A stretch of DNA of 64,000 nt from Diploptera punctata (taxonomy: Eukaryota; Arthropoda; Insecta; Blattodea; Blaberidae), in the NCBI GenBank assembly GCA_030220185.1, contig JASPKZ010002337.1:2203501-2267500 (forward strand), written 5' to 3'. Made by a program: the position numbers and the translations under genes. How positions within the stretch are numbered: the stretch's first letter is position 1; each line of letters begins with the position of its first letter. Of the stretch, positions 27,366-48,186 are shown piece after piece. A model generated the notes under the pieces. It was not told the DNA's origin. It worked only from the letters and a program-made list of their open reading frames with translations, and ran no database searches.

Positions 27366-27794
27366 TAATTATAATAAAAACTTTTTTTTTTCAAAATTCT
27401 TACATGACTAGGGATTTAGTTTAATACATATACAGTATTTATAATATAAAATTATTTATGTATATAAATAGGCGAATACAAAACAGTTAAGTACCATTTT
27501 CCCCTGGGTTTGTCAACCTTTTTTTTTTCTGTTCAGTAGCTATTGACGAGGTTTAGTGTTATCAATAAAAAATTTGGATATTGTTATTTCTGCTAATTTA
27601 AACAAGGCAGTATTGTTAAGGAAAATCTCCATGGTGCAAGAATTAAATTTCTTGTAGAGGAAGCATGTCATGTACAAAGGTCATGGACAAAAAAAAAATC
27701 TGTCGTTTTTAACTGCAGGACACTAAAATCCAGCGCCAAATCTCCAGTTTAAACTATAGGGGAAAATGTGTTAATCACAGAGTTAGACGATCGT
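27366..27794. other. AT-rich spacer
   Basis: Nothing recognised. Confidence 0.4.
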
Positions 27795-27935
27795 CCTGCC
27801 AGTGTAGGGATGGCATGTGATGCGCATGTCGGGTCCACCAGCCGTTGTAGCTGGTTTTCTCAACATGGAGCAGCTTCTTATTGTAGCTACTCAAATTCCT
27901 CACGATGCTGGCTGCTAATTTACAATACTCTCATC
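27795..27935 (-). mobile_element. Diverged SINE-E fragment
   Basis: The complement contains GAGTAGCTACAATAAGAAGC and ACCAGCTACAACGGCTGGTG, similar to the middle of SINE-E. Confidence 0.45.
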
Positions 27936-28029
27936 CCCATTATCAGTTACACTCCAACATAAACAGACATATTTTGTGAGGTATAAACATTTCTGATTCA
28001 ATTATGATGATGGTCGAATTTTGACCACT

Positions 28030-28577
28030 TGGCGAATACTAGTAAATATACAGTTATCTTCTTCTTCATCCAACCAAGTCTTAGGCCTATAGGCCTGTTA
28101 CCATCTCACTGATGAATTTTATGTCCAGCATTTTCCTTGGACGGCCAGAGATTTCTTCCCTGTTGGACAATAACAAAGCAAGGGCTCGGTAACTATCTGA
28201 GCTCATTCGTCGCAAATTATTCATCCAGTTGTTCTGGTATTTATATATGTATTCAATTACCTGCTCTAAACGTAGTTACTTCAAGACATCATCTTTGCGT
28301 TTGTGATCCCATTTGGTATATCCCGCTGAATATCTCAAGAACGTCATTTCACTAGAAGTTATCCTGCTCTCTTCTCCTTTCCGTAAAGTCCATGCCTCAC
28401 TGCCGTAGCAAAGTGCAGGTCTTACAAAGGGTTTGTATAACCGTATTCTGGTATCTGTCTGGACTAGTAAAGGTTTCATTACTGAATTTATTATTCCCAT
28501 GGTTTTATTAAAATTAATAATTTTATTTGATATGTCTACTTCATCCAAATATGTTAATGTACATCCAAGATAACTGA
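28030..28577 (-). pseudogene. RT-B LINE ORF2 C-terminal remnant
   Basis: The minus strand reads YLGCTLTYLDEVDISNK, YGSEAWTLRKGEESRI and YTKWDHKRKDDVLK, with a stop after it. Confidence 0.75.
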
Positions 28578-29040
28578 CTAATTTACTGGCACATCGAATC
28601 CATAGGTTCATGGCAGCGAGGACATAAGCTTTCTATACATCCCTATCCTGAGTTAATGTTTTCCAATCATCCCCTGTATAATCTACTTCCCTCAAATCAT
28701 AGTTAATCTCCCACCTCATTCTTGGTCTACCAACTGGGCCTTTTCCCTCTGGTTTTCCTACAAGAAGCTTCCAAGCTTCCATGCACGTCTTTCATTTCCC
28801 ATTCGTGCCACATGTCCTGCCATCGCAGTCTATGAGACTTAACTGTTCTTGTTATATCTGGCTTCCTATAAAGACCATGTAGTTCACTGTTATGAAGTCT
28901 TCTCCATTCACCTGTCTGCTCATCTCTCATTGGTCCAAAAATTGTCCTAAGAACTTTATTCTCAAATACTCGTAATCTCCTTTCCTCCCTTAAAGTAAGA
29001 GTTCATGTTTCGCATCCGTATAATATAGCTGCTGTATCCA
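28578..29040 (-). pseudogene. RT-A LINE 3' remnant
   Basis: The RT-A tail complement starts at 28578. The minus strand reads RDEQTGEWRRLHNSELHGLY and RKPDITRTVKSHRLRWQ. Confidence 0.75.
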
Positions 29041-29364
29041 AGATAGGTAAATTAATTTACTCTTTCCAGTATTCTTGAATCTATACATGTTCTACGTATA
29101 GGTCATTTTCCTTGAAAAGCAATTATCCTACATTTGTTTTCTTTGTATTGACTTTCATATTATATTTTATGACTATTTTGTTAAAATAATATACGGATAA
29201 AGTTATAAAAATCCAAATTAATTATTATTTTAACTGTAGGCCTTCCGGAATTAATTCCAACATCAGAAAAAAATTGTTAATGTACTTGAAATCTGTTCAC
29301 TATTAGTTCAGGTGGGCTTATAGTTATTTTAAAAAAAGTAACAAGCTGAGCAACATGGTACCTT

Positions 29365-30350
29365 AAACTAACTAACTCATTGGCTCTATCGAACCCGTAG
29401 GTTCTTGGCTGCGCGCACATAAGCTCTCCATACATCCCAATCCTGAGCTAATGTTTTCCAATTATAGATAATGTTATAATCCCACCTCATTCTTGGTCTA
29501 CCAACTTGGCATTTTCCTTCTGGTTTTCCTACAAGAAAGATGCTACCATACAGGTACTAATTTTATAATTAACATTTTATGATAGATGGAATGAGGAGAA
29601 GTATGGAAGCTAGAGATTTGAGGGAAGAGGATGCTTTAAACAGGAACATCTGGAGGCAAATCACTTTGCGTTGAAGGAGAAATACTGTGGCTCTATCGAA
29701 CCCGTAGGTTCTTGGCTGCGTGCACATAAGCTCTCCATACATCCCAATCCTGAGCTAATATTTTCCAATTATGGATGTTATAATCCCACCTCATTCTGGG
29801 TCTACCAACTTGGCATTTTCTTTCTGGTTTTCCTACAAGGAAGATGCTACCATACAGGTACTAATTTTATAATTAACATTTTATGATAGATGGAATGAGG
29901 AGAAGTATGGATCCTAGAGATTTGAGGGAAGCGGATGCTTTAAACAGGAACATCTGGAGATAAATCACTTTGGGTTGAAGGAGAAATACTGTGTTGTGGA
30001 ATATTCCTAATAAAAAACGCATTGGCTCTATCGAACCCGTAGGTTCTTGGCTGCGTGCACATAAGCTCTCCATACATCCCAATCCTGAGGTAATATTGTC
30101 CAATTATGGATGTTATAATCCCACATCATTCTTGGTCTACCAACTTGGCATTTTCCTTCTGGTTTTCCTACAAGGAAGATGCTACCATACAGGTACATAT
30201 TTTATAATTAACATTTTATGATAGATGGAATGAGAAGTATGGAAGCTAGAGATTTGAGGGAAGAGCATGCTTTAAACAGGAACATCTGGAGACAAATCAC
30301 TTTGGGTTGAAGGAGAAATACTGTGTTGTGGAATATTCCTAATAAAAAAA
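29365..30350. repeat. Tandem triplication of a chimeric LINE-tail unit
   Basis: Three head-to-tail units starting GGCTCTATCGAACCCGTAGG at 29382, 29689 and 30024 (spacings 307 and 335 bp). Each combines an RT-A 3' tail on the minus strand with a plus-strand LINE coding scrap (MRRSMEARDLREEDALNRN). The units are nearly identical, so the amplification is recent. Confidence 0.85.
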
Positions 30351-30852
30351 AGTTGTTACTGGTCTCAACGGAATTGTATCATGAAGTTTAATAGTATGTA
30401 CACTATGTAGCTAATCTTAAATTAAATAGAGGTTCTCATAATTGTTCAATAAGTAACATATTTCTCTAAAGATGAACATATTAAGTTTCTGCTAATGGTG
30501 CTGAGATTTTTTAGTAATACTGAATTGGTATGATTCTTAAAAAGGGTATAAATTAGAGGAAAAAGAAGTGGATACGGAAAAGGAAAAAAAAAACATGAAT
30601 GTAAATAAATAATAATACAAAAAAAATTATGAAGCAATAAAATCAAAACGAATACAATAAAAATATATACAATTTTATTTCATTCTAATAGGTATACAAT
30701 TTTCAAGGAATCCGTTACAAACAAACAATTTCAGATGTGATTACTTTTTTTTAATAAATATTGAACTTATTCTAGGCACAAAAACCAAGATATTTGAAAC
30801 AATCTTAACCTGAATTTTATATATTTAAGCCTAACATAAAAAAGACAAATGA
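30351..30852. other. AT-rich spacer
   Basis: Nothing recognised. Confidence 0.4.
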
Positions 30853-31079
30853 TCCCACTACAGTCCTTTAGGAGGCCTTAGTGGAATCGGAGATTAAGAC
30901 TCCCACTTTTCTAGACAATCGGCAAGAGATATCAGCCGGGGTTGTTAGAGGGTGAGTGGACCCAGCTACATTGTGCCGCCAGAACGTTTAAGCCAGTTTA
31001 AAAATACTGATCTCATCGTTACTCGAACCCGAGACCTTCCGGCTTATAGTTTATTGCCTTAACCAACTACGCTAAGGCA
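30853..31079 (-). mobile_element. SINE-B copy, partial
   Basis: The complement carries CGTAGTTGGTTAAGGC-like head bases and AAAAGTGGGAGTCTTAATCT. The mid-body is shortened. Confidence 0.75.
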
Positions 31080-31180
31080 TGCAAAGAAAAAACATTAATA
31101 TATATAAAATATCCCAAATTATTTTCTCATAAATTTACAATTAAAATTATTTCTCTTATATTTGAAGAGAAAAATTATAC

Positions 31181-31253
31181 GCTCAGACCGGGACTTGAAC
31201 CCGGGACCCTTGGTTCTCTAGACCAAGTGCTCTACCAACTGAGCTACCTGAGC
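31181..31253 (-). tRNA. tRNA-like gene, copy 1
   Basis: A 73-nt sequence folds with a 7-bp acceptor (GCTCAGG with TCTGAGC, one G-U), a 4-bp D stem, and a 5-bp T stem with loop TTCAAGT. A box TAGCTCAGTTGG and B box GGTTCAAGTCC are consensus. A T5 run lies about seven bases past the 3' end, as for Pol III termination. The anticodon arm is odd: stem CTTGG/CCAAG leaves a 9-nt loop. Shifting the stem by one gives anticodon AGA, but there is no long variable arm as required for tRNA-Ser. Either a non-canonical tRNA gene or a tRNA-derived pseudogene. Confidence 0.6.
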
Positions 31254-31473
31254 AAGTACCGATCTAAACGCAAATCTTTCTCTATATACATTGTAATTCC
31301 CATCCACCAAATGCTGTGAAGCCATGCTTCTATCTTGCAAATGGCGGCTCCTTTATTAAGAAGACATATTTGGGAATTATACATTACAGCCAGTACGGCT
31401 TTTTCCAAGTTTTTATTATTGATTTCGTACATCTCAATGATGGATAAATCATATTTGAAGAGAAAAATTATAC

Positions 31474-31546
31474 GCTCAGACCGGGACTTGAACCCGGGAC
31501 CCTTGGTTCTCTAGACCAAGTGCTCTACCAACTGAGCTACCTGAGC
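31474..31546 (-). tRNA. tRNA-like gene, copy 2
   Basis: Identical to the copy 293 bp upstream, including the T5 run. It has the same expanded anticodon loop. Confidence 0.6.
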
Positions 31547-31699
31547 AAGTACCGATCTAAACGCAAATCTTTCTCTATATACATTGTAATTCCCATCCAC
31601 CAAATGAATATTATCATTTCTTTATATAAAGTAATTGAAAATGTAAAAAAAAAGTTTTTTTTAAAATAATATTCATTTCTATAAACAATTTAAATAGTT

Positions 31700-32725
31700 T
31701 TTACTAATGCCACCAGGTTGTCTTTATGGCATTTCTGATATCATCCCCTGGCATTGGCGAAATTGTACCCAATTATTAAGTTTGGGACGCCTGTAAAGGC
31801 GGAGTTACCCCCGATGATATGATAGGTGATGAATGATAATGAAACACCAGGAGAGCCCTTAAGGGAGGTGATGGGTGAAATTTTCGACATTTTCGGTCAA
31901 ATTTAGCATTTTTTTGTTTTTTTAATTAAAAAAGCTATGTAACTTAAAGTGTAAGTTTGTGAAGTTTCAGTGTCCTATGGCGCTTGTAAGTCTCCCTAAT
32001 GACTGTAGGAGGGCATGTGTGCTACATTCTAATTTAACTGCATGTAAACCTTCAAATTGGCTTTTCCACACTTATATTTTCATTGCATTTCAATACATTC
32101 AAATCAAAATAGCATTGACAAATTTAATGATAGAAGCACGAAATTTTCACTGCATATCCCACATGCTATGACTAATAATTCTATGCATACATTTTGAAAC
32201 AATGTTGATAGTTTTTTAAATAAAAAATAAAATGTGTGTAGTAATTTTAAAAAATAAATTTTCATATGCAGAGGATGTATATATATTTTTACTTCCTTTA
32301 TTACAATTATATAGAAAAGTTAATGCACAGTGTTGTTTTAAATAAGTCAGTGGTCGTGTAGAAAAAAATAAAAAATTTTACTAAAAAAATTATGATACTA
32401 ATTACAAATTTTAATATGCGAATTTTTAAATGGATTTTCTTCAATAACTTAAAAACTTTTAAGCCTACAAGGATGAAACTTCAGTAAAATATTACCTATT
32501 ATGGCATGAATGTGTGTATACAAAATCAAGTATGTAGCTTGCAAAATGTATAACATAGAAATTTCACCTGTCACCCCCCTTAAGCCTACATTTAATGTTA
32601 ATGCAGATCATGGGATGTCATAGGAATAATTCCCTTTAAAAAATCATATTGTCTGATAGGGAATCGAACCGGACCCATGAAATGCAGTAAAAAGCTCTGA
32701 CCATTAGCCCATCTGGCTGATCCTT
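31700..32725 (-). mobile_element. SINE-F copy split by a TTAA element
   Basis: SINE-F body at 31700-31858 and head at 32584-32725 (GGAATCGAACCGGACCC as a complemented B box) are separated by the 31863-32579 insertion. Confidence 0.8.
31863..32579. mobile_element. TTAA-flanked inverted-repeat transposon
   Basis: Bordered by TTAA on both sides (31859-31862 and 32580-32583). The 21-bp termini match in inverted orientation with three mismatches: GGGAGGTGATGGGTGAAAT on the left against GGGGGGTGACAGGTGAAAT on the right. About 717 bp, AT-rich, no transposase. TTAA targeting with GGG/CCC termini fits a piggyBac-type non-autonomous element. Confidence 0.8.
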
Positions 32726-33499
32726 ATTTAAATATCGTTTAATATATTTTGCTATTTTTAAATCATCTAACTACACTATTCCCTCCCCCTATAGAGAAAA
32801 CTATCAAACCGTTACATAATTTCCACTGATTTGTGTTTTAACAGAAAACTATGTAACAAAATCTAACTCCCTAGCACTACCAAACCCGAAGGTTCGCGGC
32901 CGTATGTAACAACATGTATATTAAATAAAATTCAACCCAGTACCATTCATATAACTGATAAATTATATAGTACATGCAAACCATTCATAGTCTACATACA
33001 ATAAATACACTCATCCCTATAAATCTTGTCATACGACCCGTGAACTAGGTCTTACGAAAACATTTGATTGGATTCTCCTCATACAAAAGGTACAGGGAAA
33101 AAACCAAAGTAAGGCACTTTCCTATAAAACTTAGAAGACGGATTTTTAATCATAAATCGTGCCTACTTCTTTATCAGTATGCCAAACTTTGAAGAAAAAT
33201 AAACCCATAATTAAACTATTTCACATATATAGAAAATATAGTCCTTTCCATGAAGAATTTAATGACACCTCAAACTCCTTTTTGACTTACCTAGTTATTT
33301 CCCTGTACCCTAAATAGTTTTAATTTGAATGCTATGACGTTGTTTGACCTTCAAACTGGTAGCACAATTAGAAAAAATGACACACGTTCCCGATCATAAA
33401 ACATAATGTTCCTAATTTTTCAGGAAATGATTTAGATTACGGCAGAAATATGAATTAAGTTTCTCACATTTAACTTATTTCAACGATAGAAGCACTTTA
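32726..33499. other. Spacer downstream of gene 2
   Basis: Contains a short RT-A 3' tip at about 32865-32910 (CCAAACCCGAAGGTTCGCGG, minus). The rest may include the gene 2 3' UTR; no strong AATAAA was found near the stop. Confidence 0.4.
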
Positions 33500-36400
33500 T
33501 CACATGCCTACATCATGCACTGACCTCGGTTCAATATTCCGCTGTATATGTTCGTTCTGCCCGTCTGTAAATTGTTCTTCATCGTACATTTCTCTTAAGT
33601 TAGAACGAGGATGTGAACCTGGCGGATACATTAGCGGATACGGTTGCAGAAAAAAGGGCGTAGGAACTGCGACAACTTTCACTTTAGAGTTGCTGTCACC
33701 AAAACTGTTGAATTCTTCAGAAGGCGGCATGTTGGTTTGTTCAATTTCTACCGGCGGCGGTAATACAATGGTAGGCATTTCTGCAAATACACTATTAGGT
33801 ATAAATGGATATGGATTGTAGGTAGGCGATTTGATTTTTGGCACTCTAGCTTTTCCCTGGGCAATTAATTCATTCTGATTGATGACATCAATATCGGTAC
33901 TTTTACGCGCAGATGAAACGTGGGATGTTCTAATTTTCTCACCAGAGATATCTTCATTCTTCTTCAAACACGGCTCGTTCTTAGAGGCACTGTTCTCCAT
34001 GGAAGTACTGGAATCATTTCCACCGATGACTGGAGAATTTCTTGGATCTTCTTGCAGATTGACAATATTTTTTGCATTACTTTGTTCGTAAGAATTTGAA
34101 ATCTTGTCTTTCATCATTGCAGGACTTTCTGAATTCTTATTTCCAAAAGAAAATTTATTTTTCCCTTGGCTGGAAAATCCACTTTTTTTATTTGTTTCTT
34201 CTTCCCACGAAGTTTTTGAAGCTTTTTCGGCATTTCCTTTATTAGATTTTTCTGTTTCTTTTGTGTTTGATTTTATATTGGAATTATCATCCATGAATCC
34301 CACGTCTTTACTTGTAGAATCTCTAAAAATGTCCATATCCTCACTTATTATAGATCCAGAATTCCATTTAGAAACTGTTTTTGAAGTCTCTTCATGACTA
34401 GATGAGACTTCTAATGGAAAATTAGAAGTTGAAATGGATTTATCAGATGTTTTATATGATATATTTTTTGTCTGGCTATCTGAAACGAGGGAAGTTTTAG
34501 AATTTGAAACGTCAGCGTCAGAATGGTAAACTGGAATGCTTGGAATTTGCTGAGTCCTGTAATTTGAGTTAACATTCTCGTAAGCGCTATTGACTTGGTG
34601 ACCCTGAGTTTTATCTGCAACAGCTGATTCTTTGTTGGCAAAACGTTGTATAGCATCATCGTATGAATCTAATAATTGATCTTGTTCATTTTGAATTTGT
34701 TCAGTTAGATTATCATTTAGAGGCTGGTTATTTACATTTTTATTAGAAAACGAAATATCCTGTTCTTTAGCATTCATTGATCTCGGTGATTGAGAAATAT
34801 CGATATCAATGTTTATATTAACATCACTTCGATTCGATCTCGGTTCTTCATTTCTCTTACCCTTATTATTATCAACTTCAATATAGTCCATGCTTCTATT
34901 GCTGTCCTTTATTAATTCTGGCGTTTTATTGGTAAGTTTATCATCTTCTGACTTGGTGCCAGCAGACTCGTATGCAGTAGCTTCAGCTTTCCTTTCATAT
35001 GCAATACTATCAGCCGACTGTCCTTCATTCACATTTTCCTTTTCTTCGAGTAACTTATTTCCATGTTTATATGTAGAAGCCATAACAGAATATATATCAT
35101 GTTTAATTTCAGGCACCATACCAGGATCCACATCATGTGTATTTGTAAACGCCATAACAGAATCCATATCATGTTTAACTGCAGGCGCCAAAACAGGATC
35201 CACATAGATGTCGTTTAAGTAATCAAGATGGGGTGAAATAAGATTGTCACCATCATCGCTAACTGTTGACCCATTTTCATTCACAATATTTATTTCTCCC
35301 ATTAAAGAATTTGTTTTAATTCCATTGCTTGTCGTTGTTTCTTCTAATCCCAACGTGTTTAAGTCTATATTTCTCGCAACAATTGCAGTGATAGGAAATG
35401 CAGTGACGATTTCCTCAGTATACGGCAATTTAGATTCAGATTCGACTGTACTTCCTCTTACTGGAAAATTTGAAGACGGTTCTTTAGAATTATTCGAATT
35501 ATAAATAGGAGAAATAGCTGAAAATGCGGTGTTTTCAACATCTCTCCCAACATCACTGATTACACTATAACCTTTATTATTTGTTACGGTATCTCCTGTT
35601 GAATTGGAATTCCCTTCAGCAGAATAGCTTACACGTTCATTTCTAGATTTCCTTGTTGGTGTGAAGTTCAATGAACCATTTTCCGCATCAGAATTACTAG
35701 ACTGTCGAGCGACATCATATATAGACTGAGATTTTCTTTCGTCATCAGGAAGTGTATTTTCAGGATAGAAAGTCCGATTCTTCGAAATAGTACTTGACAA
35801 CTTATATTGAGAATTGATATTTTGGTTGTCTGCTACGTATTGTTGCATAATTTTGTGCCTCGCTGCATTAATTCTCACAATCCGATCATTAATTTCATTC
35901 TTCTCCTGTATTTTTCTTGGTGTCGTATTTACCTCAGCAACATCCTCTTGATCTTCTCTTCCGTGGGAATTTTTTGCATATCCATATATTTTGTTCTTAT
36001 TGTGCAACAGGTGTTTTCTAATACTGCTGGGATAGTAAGGACGTGTGTAGCGCAGAGGATACCGGTGTGAGGGAGATATGTATGGTGGCCTATGTGAATA
36101 ATATGGAAGTCTATGGCGAGGCATGTCATTCTCGCGCATGCGCAAGTGTTGCATATTACCAGGATAATATGGAATAGCTTCCTGATATTGTAAGATAGGC
36201 TCCCTCTGATTTGAAACTGTACCTGGATATCCCCTGACTGGAATACCCTGCCTTGAAACATCTACGTCTTTCATCGTATTAAAGGTTCTGATTGGAAATT
36301 CCCTTCCTTTTCCACTACCTGTTAAAGGCAACGTTATTCCATCTGGCCGAGAATGTTTATCTGTGACTGTAAACAATAGTGAAGACGATGGTCTTGAAAG

Positions 36401-39400
36401 AGAATTTCCTCTGTTTCTCCCGTTGAACGGTGCACTAAATTGTCTGTCAACATTTGAAGATATAACCGGGATGTAACGATGTTGGATATTCTGAGAGAAA
36501 TAAGGTGGAAATATTTCCGGAAATGTGATATTTATGGACTGCTGTGGAGTCGGGATCATTTGATGTATTGGTGCACGTACAAATGTATCCGGAATATACT
36601 CATGTGGGAGTTGCTGGCCTCTTATGATAATTATGCCCTCCTGTTTAGTCGTTTGATTCTGATGTTTGACTAATGAATCTGAAAATATATATGGATTTAA
36701 TTCTTTTGAGAGCGATACCTGACCTTGTTGTGGACTAGATAATTGTTTTAACATTAGCTGCTGAGCTGAAAGTGCATCCGCAGATCCTATTACGAGTATA
36801 TTCTGTGCAGTCGAATCGTTTTTTAATTGATTAAACAGTCTTGAAAATGTATACGTTGATATTGGATCTCGGTTCAAATTGCTTGAACTTACAGGTACAC
36901 TCTGATTTTCTCTGTCAATTTCTTTATTTAAAATAGTAACTTCTTTCGTTATATTTTGTGGAGTGTGCTGAGTAGGACGAATGTCATGAGCATCGTCACC
37001 GGGAGGAAGCTTGGGCAACGGCTGTTGATGAGTGTTCAATGAATATGGTTCGAGAAAATGCTGTTTAGCTTTATATTGCTTTATCATTTCATCTAACATT
37101 TTACGCAGTGATTGTATATCATTCTCTTCATTTGTATTTTTCTGATGATCGAATGTTTCTTCTTCTGTTTCAATTTCTTCACTGGTGTCTTCTTCTTCCT
37201 CTAAACTTCTAATTGCTTCCCATTTTTTTTGTGAACCTGTTGATTCTCTTGACGAATTCGGTGTCGTTTTTCTGCCCAGTGAACTTGTATCCGAGATATT
37301 GGAAATGGGTAACGTTTCCAAATCTCTGGATCTTGGTTCTGGTTCGACTTGCTGTACTTTTGATTTCGGGTAAATCTGAATAAAAACAACTTGTTCTCCT
37401 TCCTTCAAACTGGTAGCTTCCCCATCGGCGGATTCATCTACATCACATGTTACATGCACATCCGTTAAATCTCCATCATAAGCACATACCGAAGGATTTG
37501 GACTCTTCCCAGTCCTAAAATATTTTACAATATGAAATGGAATATGAACAGAATCACTTGTAGATTGGACTTCATGGTTCGTTGGGTAGTAAGGATGACA
37601 ACATACCGGTTTAACAAAACTATGATTATGAATTAGTATTGGTTTTCTAAATTTATCTGTATGAATTATTTCATACTCCTCGGCGAAGTTCTTTTTATAA
37701 CATCCATGTATGTTATTGACAAAAGGAGAGGGAGAAATTAAGGGAAAAGTATTAGTGCCCTGATAATCTGCTGTTTCTAGTTGATGTCTAAATTGCGGCA
37801 AATCAAGTGTGCTTGGTTCATATGAAGGATTGCTGAGATTAGGATCGTTTGTTAAATCAGGAGATAACATACGATGGTTTGGTAAATCATCAGGAAATAT
37901 CACAGGACCATCAGGGGTAAGGTGAACTTTAGGTAACTGCAGTTGTACTCTAACTGGATTGTAAGACTTCGGTATTCCCGTCATTGCACTTCCATTTGGT
38001 ATCGTATAATCAGCAGGATCGGTACCAGTTTCCCATTCATTATGTTTATTTTTTGATTCTTCTAAATCTTCTGGAGGAAGATTCCTCAATGTTATTCCGC
38101 TAGGTGATTTGCTTTGTTTTCCTTTCGCTTGTACTTGCAGTGTTTGTAAAGGTGCCGTTTTTTGAGACTGTTCAGTATTATAAACAGAAGGGAAAACAGC
38201 TGGATATACTACTGGTAAGTCATAAACTGGAGTCTGTTGAGCAGGTTGAACGGGTGCATGTCGATAAGCATTCAGTGAATAAGTTGGTTGAGTGGATCGA
38301 AGAAACAGTAGTGCCTGAATGAAAGAACTGTATGCATTTTGTGCTTGTTGTTGTTGACTACCTAGATTGACTGATGTCTGAGTTGGGTATGCTGCAGAAG
38401 GATTCAATTTACCATCTTGAGAATATGAAGACATTTTAATGGATTGGAGCTGATTTTGAGCTCCTAACTGAATATGTGCATTAGGGTAATTATTAACTGG
38501 ATAATAGGGAGGAATTATTCTAGGTTCGATGTGATCTTTAAGACATGACGGAAAGAAAGTGCGGATTAAACGATTACATAATTTATCTGGGACATAGGTA
38601 GGAATTTGAATGAAATGGGGCTGCCTTTGAGCAGTATGTGGAATTTGTGGATTAAATAAATTATTTGGATAATAGGAAGGATCTGTAATGGAACCTGGCT
38701 GAACTTGTAGAAGAAAATTATTAACTGGATAAAAAGAAGTACTTTTATTGGGTTGGGGATGGCTTTGAGTACCTAACTGAGAGGTGGTATTCAGAATTTT
38801 TGGAAATAGTTTATCTGGAAAATTGGGAGGACGTTTATTGACTGGACCATTTTTAACTTGTGGATGATGTAATTTATGTGAATGAAAGGGAAGATACGTA
38901 TTGGTTAGTTTTTGTTCCTGGTCACGTGGAGGCGGAATGGGATAACATGGAATCACTGGATAAAAATGATTTTTATTGGGTTGGGGATGATTTTGAGTAC
39001 CTAACTGAGAGGTAGTATTCTGAATCTTTGGAAATAGCTTATCTGGAATATTGGGAGGAAGTTTATAGACTGGACCATTTTCAACTTGCGGATGATATAA
39101 TTTATGTGAATGAAAGGGAGGATATGTATTGGTTAGTTTTTGTTCCTGGTCGCGTGGAGGCAGAATGGGATAACATGGAATCACTGGATAAAAGGGATTT
39201 TTATTGGGTTGGGGATGATTTTGAGTACCTAACTGAGAGGTAGTATTCGGAATCTTTGGAAATCGTTTATCTGGAAAATTGGGAGGATGATTATAGACTG
39301 GACCATTTTCAACTTGTGGATGATGTAATTTATGTAAACGAAATTGGGGGTTCGTATTGGTTAGTTTTTGGTCCTGGTCACGTGGAGGCGGAATGGCATA

Positions 39401-39889
39401 ATATGGAACCACTGTATGAATGTATCGTGCTTTGCCTGAAGGCAGATTTAGATGATTATCAACTGCTTGGTTTGAAGAACGTAACTGAGATGAAAATTCG
39501 GTTTCCAAAACTACGGAAGGTTCTTGAGTCTTGTTAGAAGGCGAATTATCAGTGTTATTAACATTCTCCCATTGGTTGCTATTACAACTATTCAGTCGAT
39601 CACAATTAACGCTTATTGATGATTCAGATTTTTTCATTCGGCTCAAAGGCTGATTTCCATAATTTCCCTCACTTTCAATAGTTTTAAACCGATCACTTGA
39701 AAAGGTTTCGTTCGTTTGAACATTTTCATACGTTTGAGTAACGTCGCCTGGTTTCAAAGTTGTTCCTTTTTTACCCAAAAATTCATCACTTTCTTCACTC
39801 TTCATAGAATCCACTGCCTGACAACTTATATTTTCTAAACAGTTAATGATGGACACTAAAACGCACAAATATCTGTAAACACAACGCAT
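33500..39889 (-). CDS. Giant secreted low-complexity protein (gene 2)
   Basis: One uninterrupted 2129-codon frame from ATG to TGA. Residues 1-23 form a signal peptide (MRCVYRYLCVLVSIINC...). Residues about 157-385 hold three copies of a 76-residue repeat containing PPRDQEQKLTNT, FPDKLFPKI and NTTSQLGTQ; two adjacent copies are spaced exactly 228 bp at DNA level. A Gln-rich stretch lies near 516. A more ordered segment at about 730-860 contains most of the cysteines (near 730, 763, 801, 815). An acidic Glu-rich run (about 892-910) and a probable helical segment follow. A Tyr/Pro/Arg block sits at about 1257-1293, a 22-residue duplication (KHD.DSVMA) near 1580-1610, and Ser/Asn/Lys/Glu-rich sequence to about 2000 before a Pro-rich C terminus. 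Survival of so long a frame in AT-rich DNA argues for selection. No family recognised; structural, mucin-like or silk-like roles are guesses. Confidence 0.85.
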   Translation of the reverse strand: MRCVYRYLCVLVSIINCLENISCQAVDSMKSEESDEFLGKKGTTLKPGDVTQTYENVQTNETFSSDRFKTIESEGNYGNQPLSRMKKSESSISVNCDRLNSCNSNQWENVNNTDNSPSNKTQEPSVVLETEFSSQLRSSNQAVDNHLNLPSGKARYIHTVVPYYAIPPPRDQDQKLTNTNPQFRLHKLHHPQVENGPVYNHPPNFPDKRFPKIPNTTSQLGTQNHPQPNKNPFYPVIPCYPILPPRDQEQKLTNTYPPFHSHKLYHPQVENGPVYKLPPNIPDKLFPKIQNTTSQLGTQNHPQPNKNHFYPVIPCYPIPPPRDQEQKLTNTYLPFHSHKLHHPQVKNGPVNKRPPNFPDKLFPKILNTTSQLGTQSHPQPNKSTSFYPVNNFLLQVQPGSITDPSYYPNNLFNPQIPHTAQRQPHFIQIPTYVPDKLCNRLIRTFFPSCLKDHIEPRIIPPYYPVNNYPNAHIQLGAQNQLQSIKMSSYSQDGKLNPSAAYPTQTSVNLGSQQQQAQNAYSSFIQALLFLRSTQPTYSLNAYRHAPVQPAQQTPVYDLPVVYPAVFPSVYNTEQSQKTAPLQTLQVQAKGKQSKSPSGITLRNLPPEDLEESKNKHNEWETGTDPADYTIPNGSAMTGIPKSYNPVRVQLQLPKVHLTPDGPVIFPDDLPNHRMLSPDLTNDPNLSNPSYEPSTLDLPQFRHQLETADYQGTNTFPLISPSPFVNNIHGCYKKNFAEEYEIIHTDKFRKPILIHNHSFVKPVCCHPYYPTNHEVQSTSDSVHIPFHIVKYFRTGKSPNPSVCAYDGDLTDVHVTCDVDESADGEATSLKEGEQVVFIQIYPKSKVQQVEPEPRSRDLETLPISNISDTSSLGRKTTPNSSRESTGSQKKWEAIRSLEEEEDTSEEIETEEETFDHQKNTNEENDIQSLRKMLDEMIKQYKAKQHFLEPYSLNTHQQPLPKLPPGDDAHDIRPTQHTPQNITKEVTILNKEIDRENQSVPVSSSNLNRDPISTYTFSRLFNQLKNDSTAQNILVIGSADALSAQQLMLKQLSSPQQGQVSLSKELNPYIFSDSLVKHQNQTTKQEGIIIIRGQQLPHEYIPDTFVRAPIHQMIPTPQQSINITFPEIFPPYFSQNIQHRYIPVISSNVDRQFSAPFNGRNRGNSLSRPSSSLLFTVTDKHSRPDGITLPLTGSGKGREFPIRTFNTMKDVDVSRQGIPVRGYPGTVSNQREPILQYQEAIPYYPGNMQHLRMRENDMPRHRLPYYSHRPPYISPSHRYPLRYTRPYYPSSIRKHLLHNKNKIYGYAKNSHGREDQEDVAEVNTTPRKIQEKNEINDRIVRINAARHKIMQQYVADNQNINSQYKLSSTISKNRTFYPENTLPDDERKSQSIYDVARQSSNSDAENGSLNFTPTRKSRNERVSYSAEGNSNSTGDTVTNNKGYSVISDVGRDVENTAFSAISPIYNSNNSKEPSSNFPVRGSTVESESKLPYTEEIVTAFPITAIVARNIDLNTLGLEETTTSNGIKTNSLMGEINIVNENGSTVSDDGDNLISPHLDYLNDIYVDPVLAPAVKHDMDSVMAFTNTHDVDPGMVPEIKHDIYSVMASTYKHGNKLLEEKENVNEGQSADSIAYERKAEATAYESAGTKSEDDKLTNKTPELIKDSNRSMDYIEVDNNKGKRNEEPRSNRSDVNINIDIDISQSPRSMNAKEQDISFSNKNVNNQPLNDNLTEQIQNEQDQLLDSYDDAIQRFANKESAVADKTQGHQVNSAYENVNSNYRTQQIPSIPVYHSDADVSNSKTSLVSDSQTKNISYKTSDKSISTSNFPLEVSSSHEETSKTVSKWNSGSIISEDMDIFRDSTSKDVGFMDDNSNIKSNTKETEKSNKGNAEKASKTSWEEETNKKSGFSSQGKNKFSFGNKNSESPAMMKDKISNSYEQSNAKNIVNLQEDPRNSPVIGGNDSSTSMENSASKNEPCLKKNEDISGEKIRTSHVSSARKSTDIDVINQNELIAQGKARVPKIKSPTYNPYPFIPNSVFAEMPTIVLPPPVEIEQTNMPPSEEFNSFGDSNSKVKVVAVPTPFFLQPYPLMYPPGSHPRSNLREMYDEEQFTDGQNEHIQRNIEPRSVHDVGM

Positions 39890-40167
39890 TTTGATAAATA
39901 CGTAATATTTAACACTGACGATAGATACTTTTAATAAGAACTGATTTTCACTGACTAAATAATTTGATGAGTTGGGGCTGTCTTTATTACATTTGATATA
40001 AAGCTGAGATCAGCAAAAATATTAGCTTCCTCTTCTAACAGCGACAATGGCCACAGAATCATGATGCAGCAGAAATTGAAAAATTGTGAATACAGGAACT
40101 ATTTTGTGTTCTTATTTTCAAGAAATTGAGGTTAAATAATTACTTCACGATATTGCATACACAAAAT
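39890..40167 (-). other. Upstream region of gene 2
   Basis: Likely promoter area. A weak TATA-like TTTATATC sits about 108 bp before the ATG, with TCAGT initiator-like motifs downstream of it. Not decisive. Confidence 0.3.
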
Positions 40168-40570
40168 TTAATTAGGACTATAGCAACGTGAGCAATTTAA
40201 TTTCATCAAAGTAATACTACACAGTCCAGGACAGAGAAAGTTGTCCCAGCTTAAAATGCTTGTCTAAAATTGATTTTAGGAGAAAATGTTTTTGTATCTT
40301 CTCTATATATTTTTTTTTTACTTTAAAGTAAGATTTCTTCATTTTATATTTATTTTATTTTAATAGTAAATATCAAACTTCACTGTGAAAAATTCAAAAT
40401 AGAGGCCACTAGAGAAGTTCAAAAATGTTAGTTTGAGGTTGACTCCCACCAACAAAGGTACGATTTTGCTGGTTAACGAAGACAATCATACTTGTCTGAA
40501 TTGATTTTTGTATGCCGAATTTGGTTTTGAAAAGAAAAAAACTGCCAATGGTTATAGCGTTAACTGATGT
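40168..40570. repeat. Direct repeat copy 1 (long-TIR element relic)
   Basis: Shares GGACTATAGCAACGTGAGCA, GCTGGTTAACGAAGACAATC and GATTTTTGTATGCCGA with 40915-41655. The second half also matches the long inverted arms at 58275-60370. Confidence 0.75.
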
Positions 40571-40584
40571 ATATATTGATGGTT

Positions 40585-40910
40585 CACCGTTGTGGTCTCG
40601 AGCTAGCGTGCTACCTTGTCACGCAGCGGGCCCGGGTTCGATTCCCGGTCGGGACAGACCCTTGGGTGAGGTTATCTTCGGGGTTTTTCCTGTAAGACAA
40701 ATGTCAGGAAGCTTAGGGCTCAACGGTCCACGAAAATCATCCGGCCATCATCATCATCCTCATCAGTATCATCATCATCATGTCACCGGTGTGGAAAGAA
40801 ACGGGAAGCTACCACGCCTACAATTCCCTAGTAAAGCTGCAAAGCATAGCATGAAAATGCTACGATTGCAGTGAAAGACCTGCCCTCGGGCAGAATTACT
40901 ATAAAATGGA
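40585..40910 (+). mobile_element. SINE-A copy
   Basis: Starts near CACCGTTGTGGTCTCGAGC, with GGGTTCGATTCCCGG, a CAT-rich segment and the terminal CCTGCCCTCGGGCAGAATTA. Lies between the two direct repeats. Confidence 0.85.
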
Positions 40911-40914
40911 ATAT

Positions 40915-41655
40915 CTAATTAGGACTATAGCAACGTGAGCATTTTAAAATCATCAAAATAATACTATACAGTTCAGGACAGAGAAACTTACCCCACCTTA
41001 AAATGCTTGTCTGAAATGTATTTCAGGAGAAAATGTTTTGTGTCATCTCTATTTTTTACTTTAAATTAAGATTTATTTATTCTATACTTATTTTATTTTA
41101 TTTTAAATGTCCCGTGCCATAGCCTAGTGGTTAAGGCAAGAAGCATTGGCGCAGAGATATGGGACTTGCGCTGATTCGAGTCCCCATGGGGAAAGAAATT
41201 TTCTCATGGAATTTCGGCCAGTATGGGACCGGTGCCCGCCCAGCATCGTGTGGCATTTGGGTACCTACAATAAGTAGCGACAAGGTTGAGAAAACTAGCT
41301 ATAACGGCTGGGGTACTCGACATGCTGACCACATGTCACATTTACTGGCTAGATTATCGTCTACCTCTGTGATTAACACATGTGGATGTGAGGCCAGCAG
41401 CCGGATGGTAGGCCAAGGGCCTTCTAGGCTTGTTGCGCTTGGAGTTTTTTTATTGTTTTATTTTAATAGTATGTACCTAACTTCACTGCGAAAAATTTAA
41501 AATTGAGGCCACAAGAGAGGTGTATAAATTTTGGATTTAGGTTAACTCCCACCCGCAAAAGGTACGAGTTTGCTGGTTAACGAAGACAATCTTAATTTTC
41601 TTAATTGATTTTTGTATGCCGAGTTTGGTTCCGAAAAGAAAAAAAAACTGCGAAT
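40915..41655. repeat. Direct repeat copy 2, interrupted by SINE-E
   Basis: Same order of sequence as 40168-40570, with SINE-E inserted inside the T-rich centre. Confidence 0.75.
41107..41455 (+). mobile_element. SINE-E (tRNA-derived) copy with 11-bp target duplication
   Basis: Exact TTTTATTTTAA repeats at 41096-41106 and 41456-41466. The head CCATAGCCTAGTGGTTAAGG with GATTCGAGTCCCCAT is tRNA-like. The body contains GAGAAAACTAGCTATAACGG. Confidence 0.85.
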
Positions 41656-41696
41656 GGTTAGAGCGTTATATATAGGGCATATTGTTATGGTCAGAT

Positions 41697-42492
41697 TCCC
41701 TCCATAGTATCTTTACCTTGTCGTGTTGGAGTGGCTTGCATGCTTAAATGATCCCAAGAGATATATGGCGGTAGCATCGCTGCCGAAAGGTTTACCTATT
41801 TCGGACAGATCGAAAGTGATAAGTTACTCAAAAAATGTATCTTGGTCGAAAGATTGATGATTTTCACCGTAAAAATGCAACCGTCAAGAAGCGCGAGGAT
41901 GGGTTCCACTGGGGTAAATTCATAAATAAATTAAACATAGGTTCAATTCATGAAATGCATGTTATTATGCAACACAGTGACTCTTGTCGTATCAACTTCT
42001 CTAAAAAAACGATAAAATGAAAATGTATAAAACTGTTATTCTCCCATATATAGTATACAGATGCGAAACATGGACTCTTACTTTAAGCGAGGAGAAAATA
42101 TTACGAGCATTTGAGAATAAAGTTCTTAGGAAAATGTGTGTACCAAAGGAGATGAAGGGACAGGCGAATGGAGGAGACAGCATAACAGTGAGCTACATGA
42201 TCTTCATAGGATACGAGATATAATATAAACAGTTAAGTCTCGTAGACTGGGATGGGCAGAACATGTGGTACGAATGGGGAATTAAAAGAGGAACGTGGAA
42301 ACGTTTTGTGGTAAAACCAGAGGGAAAGCGCCCACTTGGCAGCCAAAAATAAGGTGGTAGAACAACATTAACCGTGATTTGAGGGAAGTAGATTATGCAG
42401 AGATAATTGCAAAACATTAATTCAGCATAGGAACGTATGGAGAGCTTATGTCCGCACAGCCATGAACCTATGGGATCGATAGTACCAGTTAG
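41697..42492 (+). mobile_element. Internally deleted RT-A LINE
   Basis: The 5'-type segment (ATAGTATCTTTACCTTGTCG to GGTTCCACTGGGGTAAAT) is joined at about 41925 to the RT-A 3' part (CETWTLTLSEEKILRAFENK) and ends GGGATCGATAGTACCAG. The RT domain is missing. Confidence 0.65.
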
Positions 42493-42627
42493 TTGGTCCG
42501 ATTCGGCGTCTAGTAAGTTGGAGCGATCAATATTTGTAATTTTTTTCAATTTATTTTATGGGGAATAACATCAATTTATTTTGGAATTTAGTAATAAAAC
42601 AAGCAACCCTTCACCTAGTATATTAAT

Positions 42628-43010
42628 GAATTATAAATGGTAGTGCCTATTATTACTTATGGATCCGAAACGTGGACAGTGACAACACAACAATCTGCCA
42701 GAATACAGGCTGCTGAAATGAGATTCCTCAGACCAATAGCAGGATATCAAAGAACAGACAAAAAACATAACACAGAAATAAGACAACAACTAAAAGTAGA
42801 GGAATTAAACACAACAATAGTGGAAAGAACACTTGGCAAGGATGACTGAGAATAGAATACCAAAAGCAGCATACAGCTATTCACCACGAGGAAGAAGAAG
42901 TTTGGGAAGACCAAAGAAAAGATAGAAACAGCAGCAATTTGGAGCCGGAACAGGCTAGTAAATAAGCCTAAACCGTGAAGAAGAAGAAGAAGAAGAAGAA
43001 AGAAGAAGAT
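42628..43010 (+). pseudogene. RT-B LINE ORF2 C-terminal remnant
   Basis: Reads ITYGSETWTVTTQQSARIQA and EMRFLRPIAGYQRTDKKHN, then SLGRPKKR-like sequence, with a frame break after 42849. Ends in GAA repeats at 42977-43010. Confidence 0.75.
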
Positions 43011-43078
43011 AAATGGTAAGCGAAGTGGAAGACGGAGAACTGGAAGGCAGAATTTGAGATGGGTGGATTGATGGAGTA

Positions 43079-44040
43079 TTATCGCCTCACTATGATGGTT
43101 GTCCAGCGATTCGCCTTGTTTCCCCGCAGCTGTTATGTATAATTAAATACAAAATGATGCCGACTACAGCCTCTATAATAATTCCGCATGTTAATCAAGT
43201 AAATATCAATAAAACTAAATATAAGGTCACAAATAAAAATACATTATATAATGGAAATGGATAGCTAACGACAAATGAGGGAAATTTTGAACAATGGCTG
43301 AATTCAAATACCTAGGAACAATAATCACAAACAGGAATGAGATGCACAAGGAAATTAAACATAGGCTCAATTCTGGAAATGCGTGTTATTATGCATTACA
43401 GAGACTATTGATTTCCCAACTCCTTTCAAAAAATGTTTAACTGAAAATATATAAAACTATTATTCAACCAGTTATATTTTATGGAAAATATATAAAACTA
43501 TTATTCAACCAGTTATATTATATGGATGCGAAACATGGACTCTTACTTTAAGGGAGGAAAGGAGATTACGAGTATTTGAGAATAAAGTTCTTAGGAAAAT
43601 TTTTGGACCAAAGAGAGATGGACAGGTGAATGGAGAAGACTGCATAACAGTGAATTACATGGTCTTTATAGGAACATTATATTATATAATGAGAACAGTT
43701 AAGTCTCGTAGACTGCGATGGGCAGGACATGTGGCATGAATTGGGAATGAAAGACGTGCATGGAAGCTTCTTGTAGGAAAACCAGAGGGAAAACGCCCAG
43801 TTGGTAGACCAAGAATGAGGTGGGAGAATAACATTAACTATGATTTGAGGGAAGTAGATTATACAGGGGATGATTGGAAAACATTGGCTCAGAATAGGGA
43901 TATATGGAGAGCTTATGTTCGCGCAGCCATGAACCTACGGGTTCGATAGTGCCAGTGAGTTAGTTAGTTAATCATTCTCAAGCATTGTAGCACGGCACCC
44001 GCTTTTATATAAACGGACAACCATCATAGTGAGGCGATAA
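43079..44040. mobile_element. TA-flanked inverted-repeat element hosting RT-A
   Basis: 26-bp termini match perfectly in inverted orientation (left begins TTATCGCCTCACTATGATGG; right end 44015-44040), bordered by TA at 43077-43078 and 44041-44042. Without the nested LINE (about 43194-43975) the element would be about 180 bp. Confidence 0.85.
43194..43975 (+). pseudogene. RT-A LINE 3' remnant
   Basis: Carries GCETWTLTLREERRLRVF, FGPKRDG and RLRWAGHVA with frame breaks, a local duplication of TATTCAACCAGTTATAT near 43460-43520, and an AGTT tail. GTTAATCA stands at both junctions. Confidence 0.8.
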
Positions 44041-44264
44041 TACTTACAAAATGTAAAACTCAGAATCGGTGGACGGTTTTCAGAGATAGAGAAGCCTGAA
44101 GAAAAAAAAAAATATCTGAAAAAATCAATGATCCACCCATGGTTGTTGTGCCAATGATGATGATGACTTCTTAAAATAATTTAATCCACATTTTGAGAAT
44201 TTTTAATCCATATGTGTGTACAAATTTAACATTTTTTTTTATTGCATGTAAATGTTAGCCCTGA

Positions 44265-44920
44265 CTATTTAACTCATGTCCCAAATGGGAGTCAAAGACC
44301 AATCATGCTTCAATGAATTTTGTTTTACAACTAATGACAGTCGTGTTTCACTCATTCTTTATCGAATTTTCTTTTTCGCCTCCTGCTTTTGTGATAAAGA
44401 AAGCTCCTCTATTTTAATACTATAAACAGGTCAGAGCATTATTTTGAAGTGATTGACTCTCCAACAAATACGTTGAATATAGCAAATAATGAATAGATTC
44501 CTTCGAATTACACATTTGATAATTGTGTGTTCAGTAATTGTGTTTTTAAATAATGATTTTACCGAGTTGTTTACTAAAAAAACAAATTAACACCCTATAC
44601 TGTTGGTTATGATATACAGTTTGATGTGTTTCATTTTTTCTCCATTAGGGTGCATTCTTAAAATACTGCGATCCTATTTGACAATAAATAATATAATCAA
44701 GTTGCAGTGAATAAACAATTCAACATAACCACACATTTCTGATTTGTTTTCATACAACGCCGTTTACATAAAATATATAAATATTTTAAAATAACTATAT
44801 TTAAAGGATTTTTTAGTAAACAGCTTAATTTTATTCGTTAAATAGTCCTAACAAATGTCACTCTTGATTTCCAAATCCTCTGGACAAGTTTGAAATCACC
44901 CGTGACATTACTTATGACTA
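44265..44920 (-). mobile_element. G-element copy 2
   Basis: Starts GACTATTTAACTCATG and ends ...TGACATTACTTATG. Immediately followed by another copy in the same orientation. Confidence 0.75.
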
Positions 44921-45530
44921 TTTAACTCATGCAACAAATGCTAGTCAATGACCAATCACGTTTCAATGAATTTTGTTTTACAACCAATGACAGTCGTGTT
45001 TCACCTCGCTCTTTATCGATTTCTCTTTATCAGCTCCTGCTTTTGTGATAAAGAAAGCTCCTCCTTTTTAATGTTCTGAACAGGACAGAACATTATTTTT
45101 CTCCAACAAATACATTGAATATAGCAAATAATGAACAGATTCCTTGATTTTACTAAAAAATAAATGAATAACCCGTAATGTTGATTATGGTATATAGTTT
45201 GATGTGTTTCATTATTTCTCCACTTGGGTACATTCTTAAAATATTGCGATCTTATTTGGCAATAAATAATATGATCTAGCTTGAATGAACATAACCTCAC
45301 ATTTCTGATTTGTTTTCAAACATCGCCGTTTACATTAAATATATAAATATTTTAAAATAACTATAGATAAATAATGATTTATGAGTAAATAGCTTAATTT
45401 TATTCGTTAAATAGTCCTAACAAATGCCACTCTTGATTTCCAAATTATCTTGGTAAATTCACGACTCACTTCGTGAGTCGTGAATTTATCGATAATTTGG
45501 AAATCACTCGTGACATTACTTATGATAATA
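44921..45530 (-). mobile_element. G-element copy 3 with terminal hairpin
   Basis: Head-to-tail with copy 2. Its far end carries a perfect 15-bp stem AAATTCACGACTCAC with loop TTC (about 45455-45487), nested in a longer imperfect palindrome. Confidence 0.75.
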
Positions 45531-45750
45531 TAGGAGATTTTAGTGAGGAACAGGGTGAAATATTTCACCAGGATATAAAAAAACATGGAAATGAGGTATC
45601 AAGGGAATGTTAACATAATGTCTGGCTATTGCTGGATGTTAAAAAGGGACTGTTCTGAACATGCGAGAAGGTCAAAGAGGAGATAGTTTTAAATGCAATT
45701 TTGGGGTAAGGTTATGAATGTGCGAATTATTAATTATTATTGTTAAGTAA

Positions 45751-46047
45751 GTCCACCGCTGTGGTCTCGAGGTAACATGCTGCCTTGACACGCAACGAGC
45801 CCGGGTTCGATCCCCGGTCGGGGCAGTTTTTCTGGGTGAGGTTTTTATCGGGGTTTTTCCTCATCTATAACCAAATGTCAGGAAAACTTTACGGCTCAAA
45901 AGGTCTCCGAAATCATCATCCTTAACTGGTGTAGAAAGCAACGGGAAGCTACCACACCTACAATTCCCTAGTAAAGCTGCAAGCATAGCATGAATATGCT
46001 ATGATTGCAGTGAAGGACTTGCCTTCGGGCAGAATTACTATGGGTGG
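45751..46047 (+). mobile_element. SINE-A copy with target duplication
   Basis: ATTGTTAAGTAA (45739-45750) and ATTGTTATGTAA (46048-46059) flank it, one mismatch. Full-length, starting GTCCACCGCTGTGGTCTCGA. Confidence 0.85.
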
Positions 46048-46059
46048 ATTGTTATGTAA

Positions 46060-46790
46060 TGATTAATTAGTGGCAAATAAATTCTGGCCTAGTTCTTCAC
46101 ACAAAATTCTTGTTGAAAACATTTTTTTATTACGTTTCACGAAGCTTAATTTCATTTCTAGTTATTCATAAATACTTTGAAAACCTGACATGATTGGAGA
46201 AAATGCAGATCATTTTCGAATTCAGTCCGTTTAGAATCACCTATCAGATTAAAAGAAAAAAGTTTTTAAATTCAGAACGGTGTTATCTAAAAGTTTAAAT
46301 AAGTGAAAGTATACATCATTCACATATTCAAAAGAAATTCGGATGTTCTTATGTCAAGGCATGATATTGGATGTACCGAATTGTATGTCAAGTGTCCATT
46401 TCAAGGATCAATAAGTATTGTTTCAACTTTAAGTATCCTATGCCAAGGCCAGCAACCTTGTAACCAACAAGTGAAAAAAATTACTTTCAAATATTCTTAG
46501 TCGAAAGTAAATACAATAGGTAAACAATATGACATAATAATATGATATAATTAATATTCTGACAGCCTGTGAATATTCGAACGGAGAACATATGACTGTT
46601 AGCGGCATGTTGGCCAATGTGATAATTAAGGTTCGGAAGTTGAGGACCTATAAAATACTTTGAAAGTACCTAAAAATATCCTAAAAATACCTAAAAACTG
46701 AAAAATTCGTAAAAACGCAATAAAAATTAGATAATTTTGGTTTCAACTTCATTTTAATGAATATGATATTAGTATATTACGATGCGAGGT
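46060..46790. other. AT-rich spacer
   Basis: Contains a run of CCTAAAAATA-like repeats near 46670; otherwise nothing recognised. Confidence 0.4.
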
Positions 46791-46794
46791 TGGG

Positions 46795-46888
46795 AAGTGG
46801 TTTTTACAGAATCGAGGAAAAATGTTTAAAAACCGAGTGATAGCCAGGTTTTTAATTTCCGAGATTCTGTAAAACACTTCGCAAACGT
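46795..46888. repeat. Hairpin with about 40-bp arms
   Basis: GAAGTGGTTTTTACAGAATC and the complement of GATTCTGTAAAACACTTC form imperfect arms, with a short A-rich loop region. Confidence 0.65.
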
Positions 46889-47254
46889 GCGTTGTACATT
46901 ATTTTTTGGGCGATGGTGTTTTCAAAATAATAAATAATAGTAAAATAATAACATCTTTGTTGGAAATATTTGCGTTCATCATAAACAACTGACTAACGTT
47001 AACAGTGTGGGCAATGTTTATTAGTTGAAACAACAGGAGGACTTGAGAACAATTTTGATAAAATGGCCGCACGTGCCGTATTAATTGTTTTATATTGTTT
47101 CAAATAAAGTTCAGTTAATTTAAAATGCAGTGATTTGTTTCGTATAGTATATTAAAACTACCTTTTGGATATTTTTTGTATAAACATTACATAGAATACA
47201 TAGAGGGCAGTGGTTTTACTTCCCGCACGTGGGTGTAAATGTAATATTACAGTA
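46889..47254. other. AT-rich spacer
   Basis: Nothing recognised. Confidence 0.4.
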
Positions 47255-47355
47255 TAGTTATTTAGGTTGGCAACCCCAAAATGCAGGAAGTTGAAGTTTC
47301 AGTCATCGTCGCCATTGCTGTAAGTACGACAAAACGCACTATCGCACAAAAAATA
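47255..47355. repeat. Interspersed repeat copy 1
   Basis: Shares GGTTGGCAA.CCCAAAAT and GTAAGTACGA with 49320-49425; role unknown. Confidence 0.6.
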
Positions 47356-47369
47356 TATTTCATCATCAT

Positions 47370-47625
47370 CCTGCCAGGTATTAGTCCTAGAAGAACTGTT
47401 ACGGCCTGAGAAAGCAGTTTTCGTGCCATCTTTTCATAGGTCGACCAAGTGACCGTTTCCCATTTGGACAGTAGTTCATTATTGCCTTGGGGATCCTGAA
47501 TCTAGCCATTCTTGAGACATGTTCCTTCCAGTTTAGCTGATATCTGGAGATGTAGTCCAGTATTAGTGACACATTAAGTTCTTGAAGGATTTCTACATTT
47601 AAAAAAATATATTTAAAAAGCACAA
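47370..47625 (-). pseudogene. RT-B LINE ORF2 C-terminal remnant
   Basis: The minus strand reads YQLNWKEHVSRMARFRIPK and NGKRSLGRPMKRWHEN. Confidence 0.75.
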
Positions 47626-47629
47626 AGTT

Positions 47630-48186
47630 CTAGTGAAATGCAACATACATTGCGAAAAAAAATGATTACTGAAAATGCATCTTCTTTCATACTTTTTTTT
47701 TTAATTCAACATAGATTGAAAATGCAATTATGTTTTCATTAAAGAGAAATATCTTGGATAATTTACGTAGAATGGACGATTTTTCCCACCTAGAATGAAT
47801 TCAGCGAACCCGCAATGGATATTAGGCGATCAGTAGGCTGGTTAAAAATAAAAGGATATCTTGTGAGGATTTAATAATTTATCTTGGAACAAAAATATTT
47901 GCAATGTGAAACTATTTGGAAAGTAAAACTAGATAGTGTTTTTAAAATAAGTTGGATTTCAGATTAGACTCTGCGGATTCTAAAATTATAAAAATGGTAT
48001 AAATGTAGTCATGAGAAGGTAAAGTGCAAAAAAAAAGCCGTTAAGACTTAAAATTAAAGCTTAAAAAAGGATCAATATGCTAAAAAAGTCGAAAAGGGAC
48101 AAAAATGCGAATAAAACACACCATTTTCCGGCTACAATGGTCCAAAATGTATATATATTAAGTGGGGCCTCGTCTTCTGATATAAA
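47630..48186. other. AT-rich spacer
   Basis: Nothing recognised. Confidence 0.4.

Follow-up and report, generated by a model that had tools for sequence, protein, structure and literature searches.

A 2129-codon, probably single-exon frame of Diploptera punctata, predicted to encode a very large secreted repeat protein, and its shorter paralogue

The DNA analysed here (the window) is a stretch of 64,000 nucleotides (nt) from the insect Diploptera punctata (Blattodea, Blaberidae; assembly GCA_030220185.1, contig JASPKZ010002337.1, positions 2,203,501 to 2,267,500). It contains, on the minus strand at 33500..39889, an ATG-to-TGA frame of 2129 codons (P0001, hereafter P1), which an initial annotation had placed at exactly these coordinates without giving a strand. 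Counted from stop to stop, it spans 33503-40009 (2169 codons). When the bases of the window were shuffled 20 times, the longest frame per copy had a mean of 125 codons and was never above 165, so that chance is excluded as the source of P1, as first argued. A codon score was trained on 1,022 codons from two further orphan frames in this DNA, P0003 and P0002, the latter including the first exon predicted for it, and compared between the six frames in 100-codon windows, the last 29 codons of P1 being left unscored. The true frame came out on top in all 21 windows, core included. G is scarce at codon position 2 (0.117 versus 0.242 at position 1). No donor of the form [CA]AGGTRAG is present inside the frame, weaker donors being left out of this count, and two acceptor-like words occur in it. 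We conclude that P1 is, very probably, a genuine insect gene whose product is a secreted protein of great size belonging to no known family; as far as its sequence indicates, the gene probably has a single exon.

The protein has a modular layout, whose parts are all given in minus-strand coordinates. It starts with a signal-like segment (MRCVYRYLCVLVSIINCLENISCQA), in agreement with the signal peptide proposed initially; the peptide would cover about amino acids (aa) 1-24 (39818..39889), its hydrophobic core and SCQA/VD cleavage site being judged by eye. A Ser/Asn-rich part is followed by the three tandem 76-aa repeats already noticed in the initial annotation (39190..39417, 38962..39189 and 38734..38961), which are Pro-rich and form an array of 228-nt units (38734-39417); relative to the reference copy, the other two show 91% and 88% identity. 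Next come a C-x2-LI-x3-F...C motif (aa 438-449, 38543..38578), a five-Cys stretch (aa 730-815, 37445..37702), acidic and Ser/Asn-rich parts, a second, shorter tandem array with periods of 36 and 72 nt, or 12 and 24 aa (35062..35205), and a Pro-rich end. A single Cys-bearing segment had been announced; the five-Cys stretch is there, but cysteines also occur in several other segments (at aa 96, 102, 239, 315, 438, 449 and 1974, with four more within the signal region). The low-complexity modules are rich in Pro, Tyr, Ser, Asn and Gln, and it is from this composition that the long disordered tracts of the first description can be deduced; the protein is probably mostly unstructured.

No family had been recognised at first reading, and the searches were equally empty. 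P1 matched no Pfam-A family at E up to 1, and nothing in NCBIfam, in PDB or, at E up to 0.1, in PHROGs. In a database of 5.8 billion proteins, none of 4604 candidates for full-length P1 reached E up to 1, and none of 5712 candidates for aa 600-1199 reached E up to 10. Six P1 peptide patterns gave one pattern match in the IMG/VR viral contigs and 15 in prokaryote genome contigs, none of which was confirmed. Few insect sequences are held in these collections, so missing relatives there say little about insects. When P1, P0002 and P0003 were masked, the window contained no P1 match at E up to 1. P0002 and P0003 lie on the same strand as P1 and have a signal-like start, and P0002 resembles it, by eye, in the style of its acidic and Pro-rich parts; sequence paralogy with P1 was rejected for both (best BLASTP E 0.067 and 3.6).

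A paralogue was found in the host assembly (3.12 Gb, 10,165 contigs, searched at E up to 0.001). P1 produced four matches at two loci (all 16 candidates scored) and the paralogue, P1b, five matches at the same pair of loci (all 11 scored). P1b, the sole other locus detected, lies on another contig (C3006) and is an intact frame of 523 codons with the same ATG context as P1. Neutral decay at orthologous loci had been named as what would contradict the gene, and variation in repeat number as a further check; transferred to the paralogue, the first reveals no decay and the second gives one repeat in P1b versus three in P1. The number of C-x2-LI motifs is two versus one. The P1b protein matches aa 1-149 of P1 at 95% and aa 1935-2129 at 83%, and no counterpart was found in P1b for the approximately 1,500 residues of the core (about aa 452-1940, 34070..38536). 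AlphaFold2 (AF2) predicts, with low confidence, a helix for aa 2-27 of P1b, whose first 38 residues are the same as those of P1. Over a 162-nt comparison, the P1b repeat differs by 12.3-14.8% from the three P1 repeats, and these differ from each other by 8.6-11.7%, which fits an expansion in P1 after the split from P1b.

The two genes are part of a collinear duplication, which spans 27630..48036 of the window (strand not applicable) and about 13 kb of C3006 (1518237-1505343; blastn matches of at least 300 nt). Because P1 and P1b have flanks in common on both sides, we regard this as a segmental duplication, and the possibility that P1b is a retrocopy of a spliced transcript was rejected. This bears on a scenario in which the core is mostly removed, by splicing or by protein processing, so that the mature product consists of the two ends and P1b represents the minimal gene. 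P1b does stay in frame without some 1,500 core residues. However, it is a segmental copy rather than the trace of a spliced RNA, and the lack of a [CA]AGGTRAG donor together with the top codon score of the true frame across the core make this scenario unlikely. Could a single gene be represented here by two haplotypes? Each locus was detected a single time, the two being on different contigs, as haplotypes would be, but collinearity extends over only about 20 of 64 kb, divergence amounts to 8-9%, and the 180 kb of C3006 that were searched contain nothing related to P0002 or P0003 at E up to 0.001. We hold this to be quite improbable.

Within the span of the duplicated segment, a repeat of about 304 bp is present in three tandem copies at 29381-30325. 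At 31162-31597, two genes for tRNA-Ser(AGA), whose flanks are copied, lie in and beside a stretch of about 436 bp that is missing from the C3006 copy; ARAGORN finds no tRNA in L013. Several repeats of the window match C3006 in parallel at about 1464-1480 kb and 1548-1566 kb, mostly some 84 kb apart, which suggests that C3006 contains a large duplication surrounding P1b. On the plus strand, 23206-23925 encodes a fragment of a reverse transcriptase (Pfam RVT_1, E 3.5e-8), and similarly worded frames recur in the window.

A long intronless frame amid reverse-transcriptase fragments, in which the surroundings of P1b are also rich, raises the question of a mobile-element or integrated-virus remnant left open by chance. 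We give this very little credit: just two loci were detected, the frame is kept in both copies, and P1 has no Pfam domain and no relative in PHROGs or, for the six peptide patterns, in IMG/VR. A transposable element or endogenous virus is thus disfavoured, with only two loci detected and no viral or reverse-transcriptase homology found for P1 in these searches.

Divergence between the two copies is distributed in blocks. The flanks differ by 8-9% (78 of 897 nt upstream, 88 of 1108 in the part farther beyond the stop), versus 2-5% for the N-terminal end, the C-terminal end and some 780 nt after the stop. On the minus strand, the conserved N-terminal part (aa 1-150, 39440..39889) differs at 17 of 450 nt without any indel, and the conserved C-terminal part (aa 1970-2129, 33500..33982) at 23 of 471 nt, with gaps of 12 nt (at the edge) and 6 nt. 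Directly before the ATG, 3 of 120 nt are substituted and none of the final 82; these form a putative 5' leader (39890..39971, minus) that is the same in P1b and ends in CAAA-ATG. Upstream of it lies a promoter-proximal stretch of low divergence (39972..40160, minus; 4 of 150 nt per bin in the two bins spanning 40160-39857). The first aligned stretch after the stop (32717..33499, minus), with 19 differences in 781 nt, is a probable 3' untranslated region (UTR). As for indels, 24 of 27 in noncoding DNA are not multiples of three, versus two of two that are in the coding ends (12 nt at the aligned edge, and 6 nt). The alignment has a 39-nt gap just past the N-terminal part and is poor around the core boundaries; a synonymous divergence (dS) of 0.86 for aa 150-460 was set aside owing to poor alignment. 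Compared with the flanks (166 of 2005), there are fewer differences at nonsynonymous sites of the ends (26 of 703, p = 2.4e-5) and in the 3' stretch (p = 1.7e-9), whereas synonymous sites (10 of 188) are not significantly lower (p = 0.20). In these alignments the ends and the flanks that resemble UTRs are similar as whole blocks, owing to selection, to gene conversion or to the two combined.

A similar organisation is described for spider silk genes, at least in the parts of the two reports considered here. Black widow MaSp1 and MaSp2 each have one enormous exon, with conserved N-terminal regions and a divergent repeat core; about 300 bp upstream can be aligned, the first 150 bp or so are constrained, and so is the 3'UTR (PMC1885213). 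For MiSp copies with dramatically different repeat regions, the authors favour concerted evolution of the ends (PMC5348893). P1 and P1b resemble these genes as paralogues with common ends and flanks but differing cores, and the open frame of P1, devoid of a [CA]AGGTRAG donor, would correspond to the giant exon if it is unspliced. By analogy with the MaSp1/MaSp2 layout and MiSp concerted evolution, P1 may be taken to be a structural protein, secreted and acting in a like manner. The explanation we favour, with an even degree of confidence, is that P1 would be a functional, probably single-exon insect gene for a secreted structural protein, such as a component of extracellular matrix, egg case or gland secretion. 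The ends and UTRs could then act as a common cassette that serves secretion, assembly and co-expression and stays similar between the copies through selection and/or gene conversion. The disordered core would provide bulk, spacing or cross-linking residues and tolerate large in-frame gains and losses. More tentatively, the two-gene family might represent an undescribed class of insect extracellular polymer, an unrelated protein convergent with silk, in which the conserved ends, leader and 3' sequence serve as a cassette for assembly and co-expression, with gene conversion or selection maintaining their likeness, and the core is freely expanded or lost (2129 versus 523 residues). If both copies are expressed, they constitute a natural experiment in which two very different cores are combined with ends and control regions that are nearly the same, and in which the role of the ends in secretion, assembly and expression could be separated from that of the core; they would also show, in insects, silk-like gene evolution in a case that is not silk.

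A number of observations weigh against this explanation. The composition of P1 is unlike silk: it lacks the Gly/Ala-rich repeats of spidroins and silk fibroins (Gly 3.7%, Ala 3.5%). Pfam holds spidroin models, and P1, having no Pfam match at E up to 1, has no known spidroin domain; for these two reasons it is not classed as a spidroin. Single-sequence AF2 models are uninformative, with a mean predicted local distance difference test score of 34 for P1 aa 590-900 and 38.5 for P1b. Six of the 21 codon windows of P1 (starts at aa 1, 201, 301, 401, 701 and 1001; scores 0.04-0.12) do not exceed the intergenic 95% level (0.12). The intronless structure of the initial annotation is supported by the donor count and the frame ranking, but not proven. 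At the right core boundary, gaps of 16 and 5 nt restore the frame only jointly (21 nt). A TATA-like word at about 40003 and an ATTAAA at 32743 are both altered in P1b; we therefore claim neither a TATA box nor a poly(A) word, and the poly(A) site is not established. The comparison of synonymous and nonsynonymous changes, proposed at the outset and run here on the ends of the paralogues, did not bear out selection on the protein. By Nei-Gojobori counts, the ratio of nonsynonymous to synonymous divergence (dN/dS) is 0.59 for aa 1-150 and 0.78 for aa 1965-2129 (147 codons compared), not significantly below 1 (10 of 188 synonymous versus 26 of 703 nonsynonymous sites, Fisher p = 0.30); among the 76-aa repeats it ranges from 0.54 to 0.94. 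The likeness of the ends is thus not specific to the amino acids and could be due to gene conversion alone.

Such near-neutral ratios, the labile core and the lack of detected relatives would also suit a secreted protein that evolves fast and serves in reproduction or defence (seminal fluid, spermatophore, saliva), and is no structural polymer. We find this alternative conceivable but rather doubtful, given that leader, N-terminus and 3' stretch are alike in both copies, and that the size and tandem Pro/Tyr modules seem better suited to a structural role.

Insect cuticle proteins of the Rebers-Riddiford (R&R) type and peritrophin-type chitin-binding proteins are secreted and have Pro/Tyr-rich parts, as does P1. 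Neither the chitin-binding R&R domain of the former nor the six-Cys chitin-binding domain of the latter was found in P1 (Pfam-A, E up to 1). A further comparison is Brownie, an eggshell-building gene of Blattella germanica, which likewise encodes an orphan secreted protein with a signal peptide and a tandem repeat; the likeness is by description only, and Brownie differs, in the part of the report considered, by its 112 aa, 14-aa repeat and one intron (PMC2792769).

Two more signal-bearing genes are predicted on the minus strand of the window. A two-exon gene (7358-7284 joined to 5725-3899) would encode a secreted, disordered orphan protein of 633 aa, without any Pfam family above the cut-off; its signal-like exon ends in GAT/GTAAGT, followed by a phase-0 intron with the acceptor TTTTTCTTAG. 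The other is P0003 (60741-61940), an orphan protein for which a relative of 394 aa was found in an ENA contig, with 43% identity over 96%. The two have in common KRENSLD and KQLEFIMSSDG blocks, a CPYCK motif and a His-rich stretch.

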